From assembly GCA_902786365.1 (NCBI GenBank), contig CADACD010000011.1, positions 1 through 64,000 on the forward strand: a DNA stretch of 64,000 nucleotides, written 5' to 3'. Shown here in pieces: positions 498-57,447 of the stretch; within the stretch, counting starts at the first letter, position 1, and each line of letters begins with the position of its first letter. The DNA is from an uncultured Lachnospiraceae bacterium (GTDB lineage Bacteria > Bacillota > Clostridia > Lachnospirales > Lachnospiraceae). The position numbers and the translations under genes are program-made. The notes under the pieces are model-generated. The model was not told the origin of the DNA, did not search any database, and saw only the letters and a list, made by a program, of their open reading frames with translations.

Positions 498-1462
498 CCC
501 GGCTTAATATACACAACATAAGACATACCTTTTCCCTCTATATTGACCGGAATCTCGCCTATATGTATTATCTCACCCTCTATGTATTCATATATTTTAT
601 TATAGGCTGCAATCTTAAGCTTAACTATATCACCAATATTTAACTGTGTTATATCTTCATCAGCAACATAAGCCATAAACCTATAGTCATTATCATTACT
701 TGTAATGTATCCCATCACATCGCCTGCATTAACTGTTTTTCCAACATACATCTTATCCTTTGATGTGTATATTCCTTCTTCTGTAGCAATAATCGTTCTG
801 TCATCTAAACTTTTCTGACTGATTTTCAGCTGTGTATTAGCACTCTCTATTTTAGCATCTATACTATTTATATTATTGATTATAGTTAATAACTGATTTT
901 TCTTCGATATATCACTTTCATCTGAATCTAACATATCCAAACTATCTATAAATATATCATTTTCAAGAATAATAGCTTGTGCATACTTACTATTGCTTCC
1001 ATATGCAGTAACATCAATCTCAAGTGATGTATAGTCGTTTTCCTTATATTTGTTATATATTTTTTCATATATTTCTTTTTGTATATGAAGCACTTCAAGA
1101 TTATATTCATACTCATTAAGATTAGCCTCATTCACATCTGATACAAGTGTGCATATCACATCACCTTTATTGACATAATCCCCATCATTAATCTTTACCT
1201 CGCCAATTGTTCCTTCTACCACTGAGTTTAATGTAACCAATGCATTATCCGTATCTACAATTCCCGTAGCTGTTACTGCTATGTCAATCTTTGCACTACA
1301 TGCCCAGATAATAATTGTAATAATTAACGCTATAATTGTATACATTATTATATACACCATTTTACCTGCAGGTCTTTCAATTATTTCTATCATCGATGGA
1401 AGAAAGTCATATCTTAACTTTTCATCCCTGCTTTTAAGTTGCTTTTTCAGGTATTTGTTCAT
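473..1462 (-). CDS. HlyD-family adaptor of a type I secretion system, frameshifted near its C-terminus
   Basis: A 329-residue membrane-fusion/adaptor protein: a short basic cytoplasmic N-terminus, one membrane helix at about residues 34-55, a lipoyl-like beta segment (EGTIGEVKINDGDYVNKGD), a helical middle region, and a C-terminal beta-barrel. It would work with the ABC exporter encoded just upstream; its ATG overlaps the exporter stop by 4 bases (ATGA), so the two are translationally coupled. The last residues (GMALLILL) do not fit the family, while the expected ending is present in another frame just downstream. The protein is therefore probably truncated by an indel near 495-500, or the base call there is wrong. 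Family assignment is firm; activity is doubtful. Confidence 0.85.
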   Translation of the reverse strand: MNKYLKKQLKSRDEKLRYDFLPSMIEIIERPAGKMVYIIMYTIIALIITIIIWACSAKIDIAVTATGIVDTDNALVTLNSVVEGTIGEVKINDGDYVNKGDVICTLVSDVNEANLNEYEYNLEVLHIQKEIYEKIYNKYKENDYTSLEIDVTAYGSNSKYAQAIILENDIFIDSLDMLDSDESDISKKNQLLTIINNINSIDAKIESANTQLKISQKSLDDRTIIATEEGIYTSKDKMYVGKTVNAGDVMGYITSNDNDYRFMAYVADEDITQLNIGDIVKLKIAAYNKIYEYIEGEIIHIGEIPVNIEGKGMSYVVYIKPGMALLILL

Positions 1463-3582
1463 GACTCTACCTCCCCACGCATCTGACTATTATATAGGTG
1501 GGCATACAACCCATTACTCGCAAGCAGCTTATTCGGCGAACCTGCCTCCACAAGCTCTCCTCTATCTATCACTAATATCTCATCAGCAGACGCAAGCGTT
1601 GATAATCTATGTGCTATTATCAACACTGTTCTGCCTTTACAAATTTCCTTAAGGTTGTTCTGAATAACACTTTCTGACTCGTAATCAAGTGCCGATGTTG
1701 CTTCATCAAATATAAGTATTCTCGGATTATTAATAATTGCTCTGGCTATAGCTATTCTTTGCTTTTGTCCTCCTGATAAGGCTACTCCCTTTTCACCTAT
1801 AATAGTGTCATAACCTTCATCAAGATCCATAATGAAATCATGTGCACCGGCAATCTTTGAGATTTCCATGATTCTTTCTATCGTTACTTCCGGACAATGA
1901 ATAGATATATTTTCTGCAACTGTACCATTAAACATAAAGTTTTCCTGCAATACAACTCCAATCTGGCGTCTAAGCAGCTGTGGTTGAATCAACGATATAT
2001 CCAATCCATCTATTGTTATCTTTCCACTCTGAGGTATATATAGTCTCTGTACTAATTTGGATATTGTACTTTTTCCTGAGCCACTTCTTCCAACAAGTCC
2101 ATATATCTTATTCTCTTTCATCTCAAATGAAATTCCATGTAATACATCTGAACCATCTACTCTATATCGAAACCGAACATTATCAAATCGAATCTTTCCT
2201 TGAAGTTTTGGAAGATTCGATACTGCTGTTTCCGGTCTGCTCTCACCGAGAGAATTAAATATATCTCCTATCCGCTGTACAGACAGATTAGCCTGTTGGT
2301 ATTCCTGCCATAATTGCACAAGTCTAAGTACCGGACTACTGACCCTTCCCGAAAGCATTCTGAACGCCACCAGCTGACCTATGCTCATATTACCATCGAT
2401 TACAGCTTTCGCCCCAAATACAAGTATTAATAAATCCACAACATGCTGAATAAAGTTAGCTACTGCACCTGATGTCTGTGAAATAATTGCAGTATTATAT
2501 CCTGCCTTAACATAATTTGCCTGCAGTTCTCCCCATTTTTCTTCAAATTTTTCTTCCAGTGCAAATGACTTTATTGTTTGAATTCCATTAATTGATTCCA
2601 CCAGAAATGATTGTGCCACTGCACCTGTTTCAAATTTTTTATCCAAACTTTTCTTAAAAAGAGGCGTAACCACAAGAGATAATAATGCAAAAACCGGTAT
2701 TGATATTATCACTATCACAGTCAATTTAGTGCTATAAAAAAACATGACTACTATATAGACTATGATAAACACTACATCTATCATTGATGACAGTGGTGTT
2801 CCTGTCAAAAATGATCTTATCTGATCTAATTCTCTTACTCTCGCAACTGTCTCTCCTGCCCGTCTGCTTTCAAAATATTTTAATGGTAACGAAAAAAGGT
2901 GTTTGAATAATCTGGCACTCAATATAACATCTATTCTGTTAGTTGTATGTACAAATAAATATGATTTACACAAACTAATAGCCAATTCATATACATAAAC
3001 AATAAATATTCCAATACCAATTGTGTATAATGTATTCATTGCCCTATGAGTAAGTACTTTATCAACCACTACCTGTGTCATAAGCGGTGTCATTATACCT
3101 AATATTTGTATAACAAACACTGCTATTAACACACTAATAAATTGTTTCTTAAATTTTAGTATTGTAGGTATAAACCAACTAAATCCAAAACGTTTTCCTG
3201 ATATTTCATCATGTTCATTAATAGTTTTCTTTCCTATAATGATACAATTTCCATCTATCATATTTAAAATTTCTGCCCCTGATATTTTTGTCGGACTCCC
3301 CTTCATCGGGTCAAGAATCATCCATTTATCTGCCTGTTTATTAAGGATTAATATGTAATTTTGATCTTTACATTTTGCAATCACAGGAACTGTTAATTTC
3401 TCAATGATTTTTTCTTTAAACTTCGTAGTTCTAACTTTTAATCCCAGTTTCTTTGCTGATTTGATAATTTCCAAATCTATATCATCTGTGTTCATAAATA
3501 ATTCTTCTAACTGCACATTGTTACTTTTAACGCCTAACATTTTAAGAACAATCATGTAGCTTAAATAACCTGTATTTCTCAT
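1459..3582 (-). CDS. Type I secretion ABC exporter with peptidase-like (inactive C39) domain
   Basis: A 707-residue permease-ATPase. Residues 1-120 resemble the C39 peptidase fold but lack the catalytic cysteine near the N-terminus, and the histidine position before DPMKG at about 91 reads QNY, so it is a substrate-docking domain as in HlyB rather than a leader peptidase. Membrane helices start at about residue 145. The nucleotide-binding domain has Walker A GRSGSGKST (498-506), signature LSGGQ (602-606), Walker B ILIFDE (622-627) and the H-loop IIAHR. It should export an unprocessed polypeptide with the HlyD-family partner. No cargo gene is visible next to it. The start has the site AAAGAGG, and a promoter lies about 40 bases upstream. 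Confidence 0.93.
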   Translation of the reverse strand: MRNTGYLSYMIVLKMLGVKSNNVQLEELFMNTDDIDLEIIKSAKKLGLKVRTTKFKEKIIEKLTVPVIAKCKDQNYILILNKQADKWMILDPMKGSPTKISGAEILNMIDGNCIIIGKKTINEHDEISGKRFGFSWFIPTILKFKKQFISVLIAVFVIQILGIMTPLMTQVVVDKVLTHRAMNTLYTIGIGIFIVYVYELAISLCKSYLFVHTTNRIDVILSARLFKHLFSLPLKYFESRRAGETVARVRELDQIRSFLTGTPLSSMIDVVFIIVYIVVMFFYSTKLTVIVIISIPVFALLSLVVTPLFKKSLDKKFETGAVAQSFLVESINGIQTIKSFALEEKFEEKWGELQANYVKAGYNTAIISQTSGAVANFIQHVVDLLILVFGAKAVIDGNMSIGQLVAFRMLSGRVSSPVLRLVQLWQEYQQANLSVQRIGDIFNSLGESRPETAVSNLPKLQGKIRFDNVRFRYRVDGSDVLHGISFEMKENKIYGLVGRSGSGKSTISKLVQRLYIPQSGKITIDGLDISLIQPQLLRRQIGVVLQENFMFNGTVAENISIHCPEVTIERIMEISKIAGAHDFIMDLDEGYDTIIGEKGVALSGGQKQRIAIARAIINNPRILIFDEATSALDYESESVIQNNLKEICKGRTVLIIAHRLSTLASADEILVIDRGELVEAGSPNKLLASNGLYAHLYNSQMRGEVES

Positions 3583-54660: not shown

Positions 54661-57357
54661 TTATGAAAGAAAACTGTTCCTTATCATTTGATTTGTATCG
54701 TTGACTTCCCTCTCAAATTCTCTTGCTGAAATAACCCTACATCCCTGACCTGTGATAATAATCTGTTCCAAGCCATCAGATGTTGCCACCATAATATCAT
54801 ATTTTTTTCCATTATCATGTGCAAATCTCTCTATATATCCATCGGCGGTCTGAGCTTCTTTTGTAAATACTACCCATATATTATTGTATCGATTCTTTTC
54901 TCCTCCAAACCCTTTTACTTTGTAGGCATCAAAGACAACCATGAGATTGATATTTTTATACCCCTGATAGTTTGACATGATATCTAAAAGTTTATCTCTC
55001 GCTGCATCAATATTAATTCTTGCAAGTTCATTCAATTCTTTCCACGCAAAAATAATATTGTACCCATCTACAAGTAAATATTTCTGTGCATGTTTAACCG
55101 GTTTATACACATATGGTTTGCTACTATTATCCGTTCTCTTTCTCAATATATCTTTTCTTTCTTTATCCGTTTTTGCTTTATTACTGCCGTACGTTCTTAA
55201 AAATATTTCTTCAAGCTCTTTGTCTTTTTCATATCCATCTTTTTCATTTCTATTTTTTTCATTTCTATTTTTTGAATATTTATTTTCATATCTGATTTTA
55301 TTTTCACTGCCATTTTCCGTTCCATTATTTTCCTGACTTATCTCATAATAGCTTATCTCATCATTAGCCACATAAGTTCGATTGTATATCTCATCGTTCC
55401 CTATATAATCCTTTAAGTATTCCTTTTTCATTTCCACATGCATATATTGGTACACTTCATCCCATGAAATGATATACCCGGCACCATGAGAACAAAATAC
55501 AGAGTCGGGAGTATTTTCAACATCTGAATACACATCATAATTCATCTGTTCAATCACTTCCTGCTGATTATGACATACCTCATAACCTCTGAATGTACAA
55601 TTAAAACTTCCTTTACCGCGGGTATATGCTCCCACTTTAAGTGCATAATCCTGCATCAAACTAACAGGTGCATACCCTGTAAGTTCCGACATTTCAGTAT
55701 CATTGTTTTTCAGTTGAAAATGTGCGGACATCTGTTCTAAATCATTCATGACCTTTCCAACCATTCCTGCCGGAAGCACTATTGTAAAATCATAGTATGG
55801 TTCCAATATCTGTGTTTTTGCATACATCAGTCCCTGTCTCACTGCCCTATAAGTTGCCTGTCTGAAGTCTCCGCCTTCTGTATGCTTTGTATGTGCCCTT
55901 CCTCCAACTACTGTGAATTTAATATCTGTGAGGCAAGAACCTGTCAATACCCCCAGATGTGCTTTTCCCTCAAGATGTGTGACAATTAATCTCTGCCAAT
56001 TTTTCGCAAGCTCATCTTCACTGCATTGCACATCAACCTGTATGCCGCTTCCTCTCTCCCCCTGCTCAATTAGCAGATGTACTTCTGCATAATGCCTCAG
56101 CGGTTCAAAATGTCCCACTCCATATGTCATGCCACAGACAGTCTCTTTGTAAACTATCTTTCCTTTTCCAAAATCAATATTCATTCCAAATCGTTCTTTC
56201 ACAATATTTCTAAGCACTTCTATCTGAATCTGCCCCATCACCTTTACCAAAATCTCTCCCGATTTTTCATTGCGGGTAACACATATTTCCGGAAACTCTT
56301 CTTCAAGCTGTTTTAACTGTTTTTGAGCTTCTGTCAGATTCACATTCTCTTCAAATATCACACTGTACACCATAACCGGTTCCAGTACAGGTATATTTTT
56401 ACATTGTTTTTTGCCAATCATATCCCCCGCTTTCGAATTATCCAGTCCCATTACTTCGCAGATTTCTCCTGAACTCACCTCATTAACACTTTCAAACTTT
56501 TCTCCTGAATACACTCTTATCTGATTAATCTTTTCGTCATATTCTTTTACATAATCTTTTACTTTGATACCTCCACCCGTTATCTTCATATGTGTCAGAC
56601 GGTTATTTTTGCTATCCCTGCTGATTTTATATACAATCGCACTAAACTCTGCGTCGTATTCATTATGCATTGTCAACAAATCAAATCCATCCAGAAATTC
56701 TTCTATTCCCTCCATTTTTAATGCAGAACCAAAAAAGCATGGAAAGATTTTTCTTTCCTTGATTACCTGTTTTATATCATCAATTGAAATATCTCCTGTG
56801 TCTATATACTTTTCCATGATATGCTCATCACTCACAGCAATATTTTCCTTTAATTCATCCGAATATTCTGGTTGTTCTGTTGAAATCTGCGAGAAATCAA
56901 TACACATTTCTGATAATTCCTTCTTTATATTTTTAATAACCTCTTCTTTGTCAGCTATGGGCATGTCCATTTTGTTGACAAATATAAAAACAGGAACATT
57001 ATATTTTTTCAGAAGCTTCCACAATGTTATTGTATGTCCCTGCACCCCTTCTGATGCACTGATGACAAGAACCGCATAATCAATCACACAGAGCGTTCTC
57101 TCCATTTCAGCCGAAAAATCTACATGTCCCGGTGTGTCGAGAAGGGTTATGTCTGTATTCTTCCATTGAAACTTTGCCTGTTTTGAAAAGATTGTTATCC
57201 CCCGCTGTCTCTCCAGACTGTGTGTATCAAGAAAAGTGCTGCCATCATCAACGCGTCCCGCATTTCTAATCACACCACTTTTATATAATATTCCTTCTGA
57301 TAATGTTGTTTTTCCGGCATCTACATGTGCTAAAATTCCTGCCACGATTTTTTTCAT
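54661..57357 (-). CDS. TetM-like translation GTPase fused to a Rae1/YacP-type NYN nuclease
   Basis: An 898-residue two-part protein. Residues 1-640 form an EF-G/TetM-like GTPase: P-loop AHVDAGKTT (10-18), RGIT switch, DTPGH (G3), NKMD (G4) and a domain IV that carries GRAHTKHTEGGDF where TetM has its YSPVST loop. A polar Asn/Lys/Glu-rich linker covers about 645-755. The last 140 residues match the Rae1/YacP NYN endoribonuclease (LLVDGYNIIFAW, VVFDAYKVKGF, ETADERIE-like QTADGYIER, VATSDGLEQ, all acidic residues kept). Rae1 cuts mRNA in the ribosomal A site. The fusion suggests a GTP-driven, ribosome-bound nuclease. AAAGGGA fits the ATG at 57355-57357. Confidence 0.9.
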   Translation of the reverse strand: MKKIVAGILAHVDAGKTTLSEGILYKSGVIRNAGRVDDGSTFLDTHSLERQRGITIFSKQAKFQWKNTDITLLDTPGHVDFSAEMERTLCVIDYAVLVISASEGVQGHTITLWKLLKKYNVPVFIFVNKMDMPIADKEEVIKNIKKELSEMCIDFSQISTEQPEYSDELKENIAVSDEHIMEKYIDTGDISIDDIKQVIKERKIFPCFFGSALKMEGIEEFLDGFDLLTMHNEYDAEFSAIVYKISRDSKNNRLTHMKITGGGIKVKDYVKEYDEKINQIRVYSGEKFESVNEVSSGEICEVMGLDNSKAGDMIGKKQCKNIPVLEPVMVYSVIFEENVNLTEAQKQLKQLEEEFPEICVTRNEKSGEILVKVMGQIQIEVLRNIVKERFGMNIDFGKGKIVYKETVCGMTYGVGHFEPLRHYAEVHLLIEQGERGSGIQVDVQCSEDELAKNWQRLIVTHLEGKAHLGVLTGSCLTDIKFTVVGGRAHTKHTEGGDFRQATYRAVRQGLMYAKTQILEPYYDFTIVLPAGMVGKVMNDLEQMSAHFQLKNNDTEMSELTGYAPVSLMQDYALKVGAYTRGKGSFNCTFRGYEVCHNQQEVIEQMNYDVYSDVENTPDSVFCSHGAGYIISWDEVYQYMHVEMKKEYLKDYIGNDEIYNRTYVANDEISYYEISQENNGTENGSENKIRYENKYSKNRNEKNRNEKDGYEKDKELEEIFLRTYGSNKAKTDKERKDILRKRTDNSSKPYVYKPVKHAQKYLLVDGYNIIFAWKELNELARINIDAARDKLLDIMSNYQGYKNINLMVVFDAYKVKGFGGEKNRYNNIWVVFTKEAQTADGYIERFAHDNGKKYDIMVATSDGLEQIIITGQGCRVISAREFEREVNDTNQMIRNSFLS

Positions 57358-57447
57358 TGTGAGTTCCCTTTCTGTGGTAATAATCATTTGGTATCTTAAT
57401 AATTTATTATAACAATTTCAGATGGCTTTCTCAACATCTTTAAAGCA

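Follow-up and report, generated by a model that had tools for sequence, protein, structure and literature searches.

The window, a 64,000-nucleotide stretch of DNA from an uncultured Lachnospiraceae bacterium, encodes a single protein in which an EF-G/TetM-like GTPase is followed by a linker and by a nuclease domain of the Rae1/YacP family. A ribosome-directed nuclease would be the most economical reading of this fusion. Judged from its domains, the protein may be a two-part translation factor, a ribosome-targeted Rae1 that would cut mRNA in the A site and take the place of the free enzyme, and the chances of this are put at about even. The fusion is found at 96 loci including the window's (86 distinct at 90% identity) and is kept across many genera. 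In the window's family it is near-core: of 120 genomes sampled, 96 contain it in a frame of at least 800 amino acids. The frame runs uninterrupted across both parts in 90 of 91 loci, the one exception being the window's own locus again, in a second copy that is cut. The earlier note had considered a sequencing join of two genes and proposed a scan for other proteins with both parts; these uninterrupted frames and the 96 loci rule out such a join, and the single frame stands as real.

Features of the fusion gene and its upstream region, by position in the window
Feature	Positions	Strand	Remarks
Promoter-like site TTGAGA-17-TATAAT, TG ahead of second hexamer	57406..57434	(-)	just upstream of the fusion gene
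Alternative ATG of the fusion gene	57387	(-)	adds 10 aa, giving 908 aa
Whole gene, GTPase-linker-NYN fusion, 898 aa	54661..57357	(-)	frame open, no internal stop
G domain (P-loop, DTPGH, NKMD), residues 5-226	56680..57345	(-)	PF00009, 4.3e-55
EF-G domain II, residues 237-314	56416..56649	(-)	PF22042
EF-G domain III, residues 326-397	56167..56382	(-)	PF14492
EF-G domain IV, residues 418-513	55819..56106	(-)	PF03764
Domain IV tip loop GRAHTKHTEGGDFR, residues 486-499	55861..55902	(-)	
EF-G domain V, residues 517-598	55564..55809	(-)	PF00679, 6.1e-19
GTPase C-terminal extension, residues 599-640	55438..55563	(-)	consensus SVFCSHGAG..V.W.EV..MH
Polar, lysine-rich linker, residues 641-760	55078..55437	(-)	
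Linker motif ELEEIFLRTYG, residues 714-724	55186..55218	(-)	
NYN_YacP / Rae1-type nuclease domain, residues 761-898	54664..55077	(-)	PF05991

Pfam models matched the 898-residue protein in the order GTP_EFTU (4.3e-55), EF-G domains II, III, IV and V, and then NYN_YacP, and the motifs AHVDAGKTT, DTPGH, NKMD and GRAHTKHTEGGDF are present, bearing out the earlier description of a complete EF-G/TetM-like GTPase. Residues D74, H78, N128 and D131 of the G domain are kept throughout the 86 non-redundant fused proteins and K16 in 85 of them, with one gap. H489, K491 and H492 of the tip loop are found in all 86, and this loop is described as an invariant HxKHT. The C-terminal extension is largely common to most of 21 stand-alone GTPases, being absent in one (L103) and shortened in two (L098 and L100). 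In a tree of the GTPase parts, for which 26 of the 96 fused rows were used, these 26 form one clade (SH-aLRT 99) nested among the 21 stand-alone members.

The nuclease part matches NYN_YacP (PF05991) at 5.9e-48, with 163 bits against a cut-off of 24.6, and contains the motifs LLVDGYN, VVFDAYKVKGF, TADGYIER and VATSDGLEQ. Alignment to B. subtilis Rae1, whose catalytic acidic residues we take to be D7, D53, D81 and the Asp of ATSD, shows D764, D810, D839 and D861 kept; across the non-redundant fused proteins D764, N767, D810, D839 and Q865 occur in 86 of 86 and D861 in 85 of 86, and the assignment to this family with its acidic residues thus held. The further claim of an alignment along the full length of Rae1 held only in part, since phmmer matches B. 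subtilis YacP/Rae1 (5mq8/5mq9) over chain residues 3-135 (E = 3.7e-25) and the last ~30 residues of the free enzyme are missing. The C-terminal E..RR tail, which in B. subtilis includes R165/R166, is absent from the window protein; all 59 non-redundant free NYNs but only 14 of 86 fused ones extend at least 24 residues past the window protein's end, and 57 of the 86 extend less than 15. According to passages of PMC6613710 and PMC12320835, Rae1 acts on A-site mRNA, and the former has a replacement of R166 by Pro among the B. subtilis suppressors that were interpreted as loss-of-function changes. Equivalence to Rae1 is therefore incomplete, and since most fused NYNs have no tail holding R166, their cleavage may differ from that of the free enzyme.

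The earlier note gave the linker ~110 residues; measured between the conserved H640 and the NYN domain it has 120, and over the 96 fused loci it ranges from 66 to 157 (median 82). Its lysine content is 12.8%, versus 5.7% in the GTPase part. Within it lies a short motif, and 83 of the 86 non-redundant fused proteins match one of two patterns that were fitted to it after looking at the sequences; these patterns are unmatched in the 21 stand-alone GTPases, and the strict one is unmatched across the aligned portions of 60 free NYNs. In comparison with the nearest relative, dN/dS is 0.079 for the GTPase, 0.048 for the NYN and 0.31 for the linker, at a dS of 1.1-1.6 that is near saturation, and both halves are under purifying selection. 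At one locus (L220, one genome) the gene is split within the linker into two overlapping frames, each complete.

Most simply, the fusion would have arisen once, from a previously separate GTPase, and would have replaced free Rae1 in most carriers, many gut bacteria among them. A tree of 37 of the 96 fused NYNs with 20 of the 60 free ones fetched, weak and with long branches, does not reject a single fused clade (3 changes, AU p = 0.178). Free NYN genes have rlmB at position -1 in 9 and sigH at +1 in 13 of 16 loci, 16 of 20 loci having entered this count. No yacP follows rlmB in the window's genome. Of 15 fused genomes whose rlmB surroundings were checked, 14 showed no yacP there; in one of these 14 (G035) the contig stops 514 bases past rlmB. 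In the order sample, 1 of 44 genomes with a fused frame of at least 800 residues also has a whole free NYN gene (G261), and two have short NYN fragments (48-aa frame in G183, 62-aa frame in G055); in the class sample, none of 50 fused genomes has a second NYN over the cut-off and one (G366) has a weak second match. In the family sample, second pieces were seen in G069, where 139 aa scoring 140 bits lie at the end of a contig and may be a free copy, and, below the cut-off, in G100. The short second pieces in G183, G055, G366, G069 and G100 were left out of the count of free NYNs. Carriers of the fusion rarely retain free yacP.

Among genomes without the fusion, a free NYN is present in 22 of 26 with a stand-alone GTPase of the clade versus 93 of 160 others (p = 0.009, kinship ignored), which would speak for a functional tie between the two parts. 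It is the family sample (5 of 5 versus 1 of 13) that carries this signal; in the order sample the counts, 13 of 13 versus 53 of 66, do not differ significantly (p = 0.11), and in the class sample, where co-occurrence is absent, 4 of 8 versus 40 of 83. The idea that the stand-alone GTPase and free Rae1 strictly depend on each other is rejected, and the GTPase does not need Rae1, because 4 of the 8 class-sample carriers are without any NYN match. This comparison excludes frame-broken fusions, one genome with a contig-end GTPase and no NYN (G214), and G072, G117 and G093 of the family sample; two counted carriers have short GTPase frames (G058, 454 aa; G121, 541 aa). One further genome (G374, 520 bits) was not counted as a carrier, since its protein falls outside the clade in the tree. 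G093 holds a free NYN beside an RlmB-like frame and would add one NYN-only genome.

Of the two candidate starts, ATG 57357 is the likelier, since a Shine-Dalgarno-like AAAGGG precedes it and none precedes ATG 57387. The promoter-like site agrees with the consensus at 11 of 12 positions; since three such sites occur in a 301-base stretch and shuffles give 1.5 (sd 1.2), it is regarded as a consensus match only. The fusion has no conserved neighbours, the commonest occurring in 11 of 96 loci, so that no operon clue is obtained. PADLOC gave no defence-system match. A viral origin was rejected after one single-protein scan of viral contigs, which reaches close relatives only, found no relative. Two 'Bacteriophage sp.' records (H13 and H14) carry the fusion and were given no weight, because neither is annotated and H13 bears an UNVERIFIED mark.

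If the fusion is a ribosome-targeted Rae1, its GTPase would dock at the A-site side of paused ribosomes in which this site contains mRNA, and domain IV would inspect or empty the site. Once GTP is hydrolysed and the GTPase has withdrawn, the tethered NYN would cleave the mRNA within the A site or beside it. Decay of the cleaved mRNA would start from this cut, and the ribosome left behind could be rescued by tmRNA, which the window's genome has. Domain IV and the NYN would not fit into the A site together, so delivery would have to be sequential, or the NYN would work elsewhere, and for this reason the order of the steps is a guess. A bolder version, offered tentatively and with rather less than even expectation, is a GTP-gated two-step A-site nuclease in which the TetM-like GTPase clears or inspects a stalled A site and the tethered Rae1 cuts the exposed codon; the shed tail might then be a docking part whose role the GTPase took over, and the protein might be a housekeeping rescue factor of Lachnospiraceae, carried in databases under the name of tetracycline resistance.

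Three other readings were weighed. The two halves could act independently, the fusion tying only their expression, with an EF-G-like GTPase serving back-translocation, recycling or hibernation exit unrelated to cleavage. Stand-alone GTPases in four genomes without any NYN match, the split gene of L220 with its two complete frames, and a long and variable linker all suit this reading, but it is judged unlikely: the fusion is kept across many genera with both halves constrained, the short conserved linker motif is found only in fusions, and the loss of the free enzyme's tail in most fused NYNs suggests dependence on the partner. It also seems quite unlikely that the NYN half cuts rRNA or tRNA in maturation, decay or stress cleavage, with the GTPase finding ribosomes or subunits rather than A-site mRNA. 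In 9 of 16 loci free yacP adjoins rlmB, whose product is an rRNA methyltransferase, and NYN domains have been proposed to mature rRNA and tRNA, as cited in Atkinson 2015 (PMC4342817), but the tested member, B. subtilis Rae1, cuts A-site mRNA according to the passages of PMC6613710 and PMC12320835.

Least probable is a tetracycline-type ribosome protection protein with an added RNase domain, a reading that follows Atkinson 2015 (PMC4342817), where an RNase-based resistance mechanism, perhaps acting on rRNA, is proposed. The best NCBIfam match is indeed a Tet protection model, and a database record of the fusion (H2) is named 'TetM/TetW/TetO/TetS family tetracycline resistance', but the scores, 436.2 of 775 bits and 287.1 of 1100, lie well under the cut-offs of the resistance models among the 25 listed; the EF-G model TIGR00484 is likewise unmet (294 of 659.4 bits). 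The tip loop of TetM holds the drug-releasing residues, and in the fusions it is replaced by the invariant HxKHT loop: GRAHTKHTEGGDF stands against YSPVST of the Tet references (L136-L138: YYSPVSTPADF) and is also unlike YHxVDSSEMAF of the EF-G references. The earlier view that tetracycline release is not implied agrees with this tip, while the suggestion of drug-bound ribosomes finds no support, the gene being near-core and housekeeping-like (96 of 120), its scores falling below the resistance cut-offs, and some fused genomes (G159, G287, G298 and G379) carrying separate proteins of 643-644 residues with ordinary Tet-type scores. A search on tetracycline-sensitive relatives found nothing. Because the gene is near-core and at least one database record, H2, bears a resistance name, a housekeeping translation factor may be among the genes counted in resistomes. 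For the reading as a ribosome-targeted Rae1, the natural fusion to a ribosomal GTPase is a ready test of how Rae1 finds the right ribosomes, and the lost tail and linker motif offer concrete residues of interest in the free and fused enzymes.

The architecture is not new. Atkinson 2015 (BMC Genomics 16:78, PMC4342817) describes, from ten Clostridiales species, 'Tet proteins' that also contain a YacP-like NYN domain, and the window protein, with the same architecture, is one more member. The resistance reading given there is disfavoured by the present findings on the tip loop, on the distribution and on the replacement of free yacP. Literature searches aimed at the fusion found no other description and no published test of its function, and Condon 2018, on Rae1 distribution, may mention it. 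B. subtilis Rae1/YacP shares the NYN part and acidic residues, but the fusion differs by its attached GTPase and its missing E..RR end of ~30 residues; free yacP often sits in the cysS-rlmB gene group, with rlmB on one side and sigH on the other, and the fusion gene lies outside that group. The five domains stand in the same order in TetM and TetO, and phmmer aligns residues 1-596 with TetM 3j9y at E = 2.1e-70, while the fusion differs in tip loop, C-terminal extension and tree branch and scores below the resistance cut-offs. Also close are the stand-alone GTPases of the clade, with frames of 641-729 residues, ~38-49% identity, mostly the same C-terminal extension and an HxKHT tip in 20 of 21 (HLEHT in L103), but with no linker motif and no NYN; plasmid proteins of Ligilactobacillus salivarius named 'TetM/TetW/TetO/TetS family', at 49% identity and not part of the tree, probably join the same GTPase clade. 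New here are the single clade of the sampled fused GTPases, the rarity of free yacP in carriers and its absence from its old slot in 14 of 15 genomes, the distinct tip, the tail lost from most fused NYNs and the linker motif.

The gene under study (see table) encodes one protein in which Pfam recognizes EF-G domains I to V and then NYN_YacP (5.9e-48), so that the earlier note was correct in placing a ribosomal GTPase and a Rae1-type nuclease in a single frame. By sequence, TetM is the nearest PDB protein to the GTPase part (E = 2.1e-70), and the sole PDB match of the NYN part is B. subtilis YacP/Rae1 (E = 3.7e-25, chain residues 3-135). In the C-terminal extension, four Cys/His residues each reach at least 90% conservation among 81 fused proteins, and may form a metal site. 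A near-consensus promoter-like site lies just 5' of the gene, in a stretch holding three such sites against 1.5 expected, which is weak evidence of a real promoter.

Positions of the fusion gene and of related features
Feature	Record	Position	Strand	Remark
Fusion gene	window	54661-57357	-	single 898-residue protein
C595, C622, H624, H640	window	55438-55575		C-terminal extension
Fusion in record labelled Bacteriophage sp.	MT835514.1	15276-17759		
Fusion in record labelled Bacteriophage sp.	MT835563.1	5421-7964		
Split fusion gene	L220 (G072)	147-719 and 697-2832		overlapping frames, both complete

A sequencing join of two genes was ruled out by an uninterrupted frame across both parts in 90 of the 91 loci first examined, the remaining one being a second, truncated copy of the window locus. 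The check for other proteins with both parts, proposed in the earlier note, yielded after later additions 96 fused loci including the window's, or 86 proteins non-redundant at 90% identity. Among sampled genomes, NYN lies in a frame of at least 800 aa in 96/120 of the family, 44/127 of the order, 50/146 of the class and 11/149 of the phylum; in all 96 of the family genomes the GTPase likewise lies in such a frame. A scan of named genomes gave 140 relatives, and the titles of the best 80 of these are all Clostridia, mostly Lachnospiraceae, Ruminococcus or unnamed Clostridiales as assigned by name. The two Bacteriophage sp. records are unannotated, with MT835514.1 marked UNVERIFIED, and are perhaps misassigned bacterial contigs.

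In the alignment of NYN with YacP/Rae1, D764, D810, D839 and D861 correspond to B. subtilis D7, D53, D81 and the Asp of ATSD, of which D7 and D81 are the reported catalytic mutants. These acidic residues, the loss of which had been considered, are kept: D764, D810 and D839 in 86/86 non-redundant fused proteins and D861 in 85/86, and the DTPGH His of the GTPase in 86/86. Compared with the nearest relative, dN/dS was lowest in NYN (0.048), followed by the GTPase (0.079) and the linker (0.31), at dS 1.1 to 1.6. Because of this retention and the low ratios, both halves are regarded as maintained.

A tail of at least 24 residues past the window protein's end is found in 59/59 non-redundant free NYNs (Rae1 genes without the GTPase) versus 14/86 fused ones, and is shorter than 15 residues in 57/86 of the latter. 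The free tail holds a nearly invariant E..R (97% each, 60 free NYNs) aligned to B. subtilis E162 and R165, adjoining R166; in PMC6613710, R166P is among the Rae1 mutations grouped by the authors as loss of function. Loss of the tail would fit a docking or stabilizing role passed to the GTPase, and is equally a warning that the fused NYN may behave differently from Rae1. The linker (66-157 aa, median 82) contains 12.8% lysine versus 5.7% in the GTPase part across the 96 loci, and carries a short motif, ELEEIFLRTYG in the window protein. One of two patterns, fitted after the data were seen, matches 93/96 loci and 83/86 non-redundant proteins, the strict pattern by itself matching 53/86; shuffled linkers match in a mean of 0.26 of 96 (maximum 3). 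Neither pattern matched 21 stand-alone GTPases of the clade, which have no NYN (the looser was tried on their last 80 residues), and in 60 free NYNs the strict one had no match within the aligned parts.

A GTPase tree built on 60 proteins (26 fused, 21 stand-alone and 13 references) groups the fused ones in one clade (SH-aLRT 99), which is nested within the stand-alone ones. For the NYN part, a tree of 57 sequences (37 fused and 20 free) requires three changes of the fused/free label. The AU test does not reject one clade of all the fused NYNs (p = 0.178), in a tree that is weakly supported and has two long branches meeting. One fusion event would be the simplest reading. In L220, the gene is split within the linker into a GTPase of 711 aa, which includes the linker motif, and an NYN of 190 aa, reflecting either natural fission or an assembly error.

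Free yacP is nearly absent among fusion carriers. Around 16 free yacP loci, sigH follows yacP in 13 and rlmB precedes it in 9, the names RlmB, CysS and SigH having been checked on example neighbors. The rlmB locus was located in 15/15 fused genomes checked, with yacP there only in G261; in 7/15, sigH comes after rlmB and yacP is missing from between them, and in the remaining 7/15 the stretch after rlmB, which in G035 stops 514 bases past it, holds neither. The window's genome has cysS, rlmB and an mrnC-like frame, with no frame of at least 70 aa in the 1.5 kb downstream. Where the fused frame has at least 800 aa, a complete free NYN gene scoring above the cut-off is also present in 1/44 genomes (order) and 0/50 (class). 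Besides the fusion, short NYN fragments occur in G183 (48 aa) and G055. Within the genus g176 (G183, G245, G261), G245 and G261 have both forms, the fused frame of G245 being cut by a contig end and the free copy of G261 lying between rlmB and sigH. These two genomes fall on a long branch (1.18) of the NYN tree, and the free copy in this genus may be decaying or changing role.

Stand-alone clade GTPases occur together with free NYN in 5/5 family, 13/13 order and 4/8 class carriers, free NYN being present in 1/13, 53/66 and 40/83 of the remaining genomes that lack the fusion (respective p values 0.0007, 0.11 and 1). The pooled comparison, 22/26 versus 93/160, gives p = 0.009 uncorrected for shared descent. 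This is suggestive of a tie between the two, although not a strict one.

TetM-type factors occupy the A site with domain IV and place a C-terminal extension at the decoding center; by this geometry, A-site mRNA could come within reach of a nuclease tethered at that point only with domain IV out. We infer a sequence in which the GTPase would bind the ribosome, clear the A site and withdraw, upon which the tethered NYN would cleave and the ribosome would be rescued. tmRNA is present in the window's genome (169.7 bits). Rae1 itself cleaves mRNA in the ribosomal A site, according to PMC6613710 and PMC12320835, and its entry into stalled ribosomes is a proposal in the literature.

The GTPase-NYN architecture was already known, since Atkinson 2015 (PMC4342817) describes Tet proteins with a YacP-like NYN domain from ten Clostridiales species and suggests resistance through RNase action; no experimental or functional study of it was found in the literature searched, Leroy 2017 and Condon 2018 lying outside that search. 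A reading of the fusion as a TetM is unlikely: its tip loop differs, the window protein does not reach the NCBIfam resistance cut-offs among the models listed, and several fused genomes also have separate Tet-type proteins of 643-644 aa. Of two fusions on plasmid records (H1, H2), one is named TetM/TetW/TetO/TetS resistance and the other translation factor GTPase. Large plasmids of Ligilactobacillus salivarius (H3-H12) carry proteins without NYN, 49% identical over residues 1-642 and annotated as tetracycline resistance, which are probably stand-alone members of the fusion's GTPase clade. A further Tet-like group (L139-L143), with a tip of the type H..H(T/S)..DF (e.g. HKFHTHPLDF) and a DPLD/NPLD C-terminal extension, groups with the Tet references in the GTPase tree, outside the fusion's clade.

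The domain IV tip of the window protein is GRAHTKHTEGGDFR, and H489, K491 and H492 are invariant across the 86 fused proteins. The tip motif HxKHT is common to 20/21 stand-alone members, the exception being HLEHT in L103, and KHTEPGDF replaces KHTxGGDF in L101. At the same columns the Tet references (L136-L138) have YSPVSTPADF, bearing out the earlier point that the tip departs from the YSPVST of TetM, whereas EF-G references have YHxVDSSEMAF, with H489 aligned to the EF-G His. Judged by sequence comparison, the new evidence moves the fusion away from a resistance protein bearing an additional domain and toward a Rae1 re-housed on a ribosomal GTPase.
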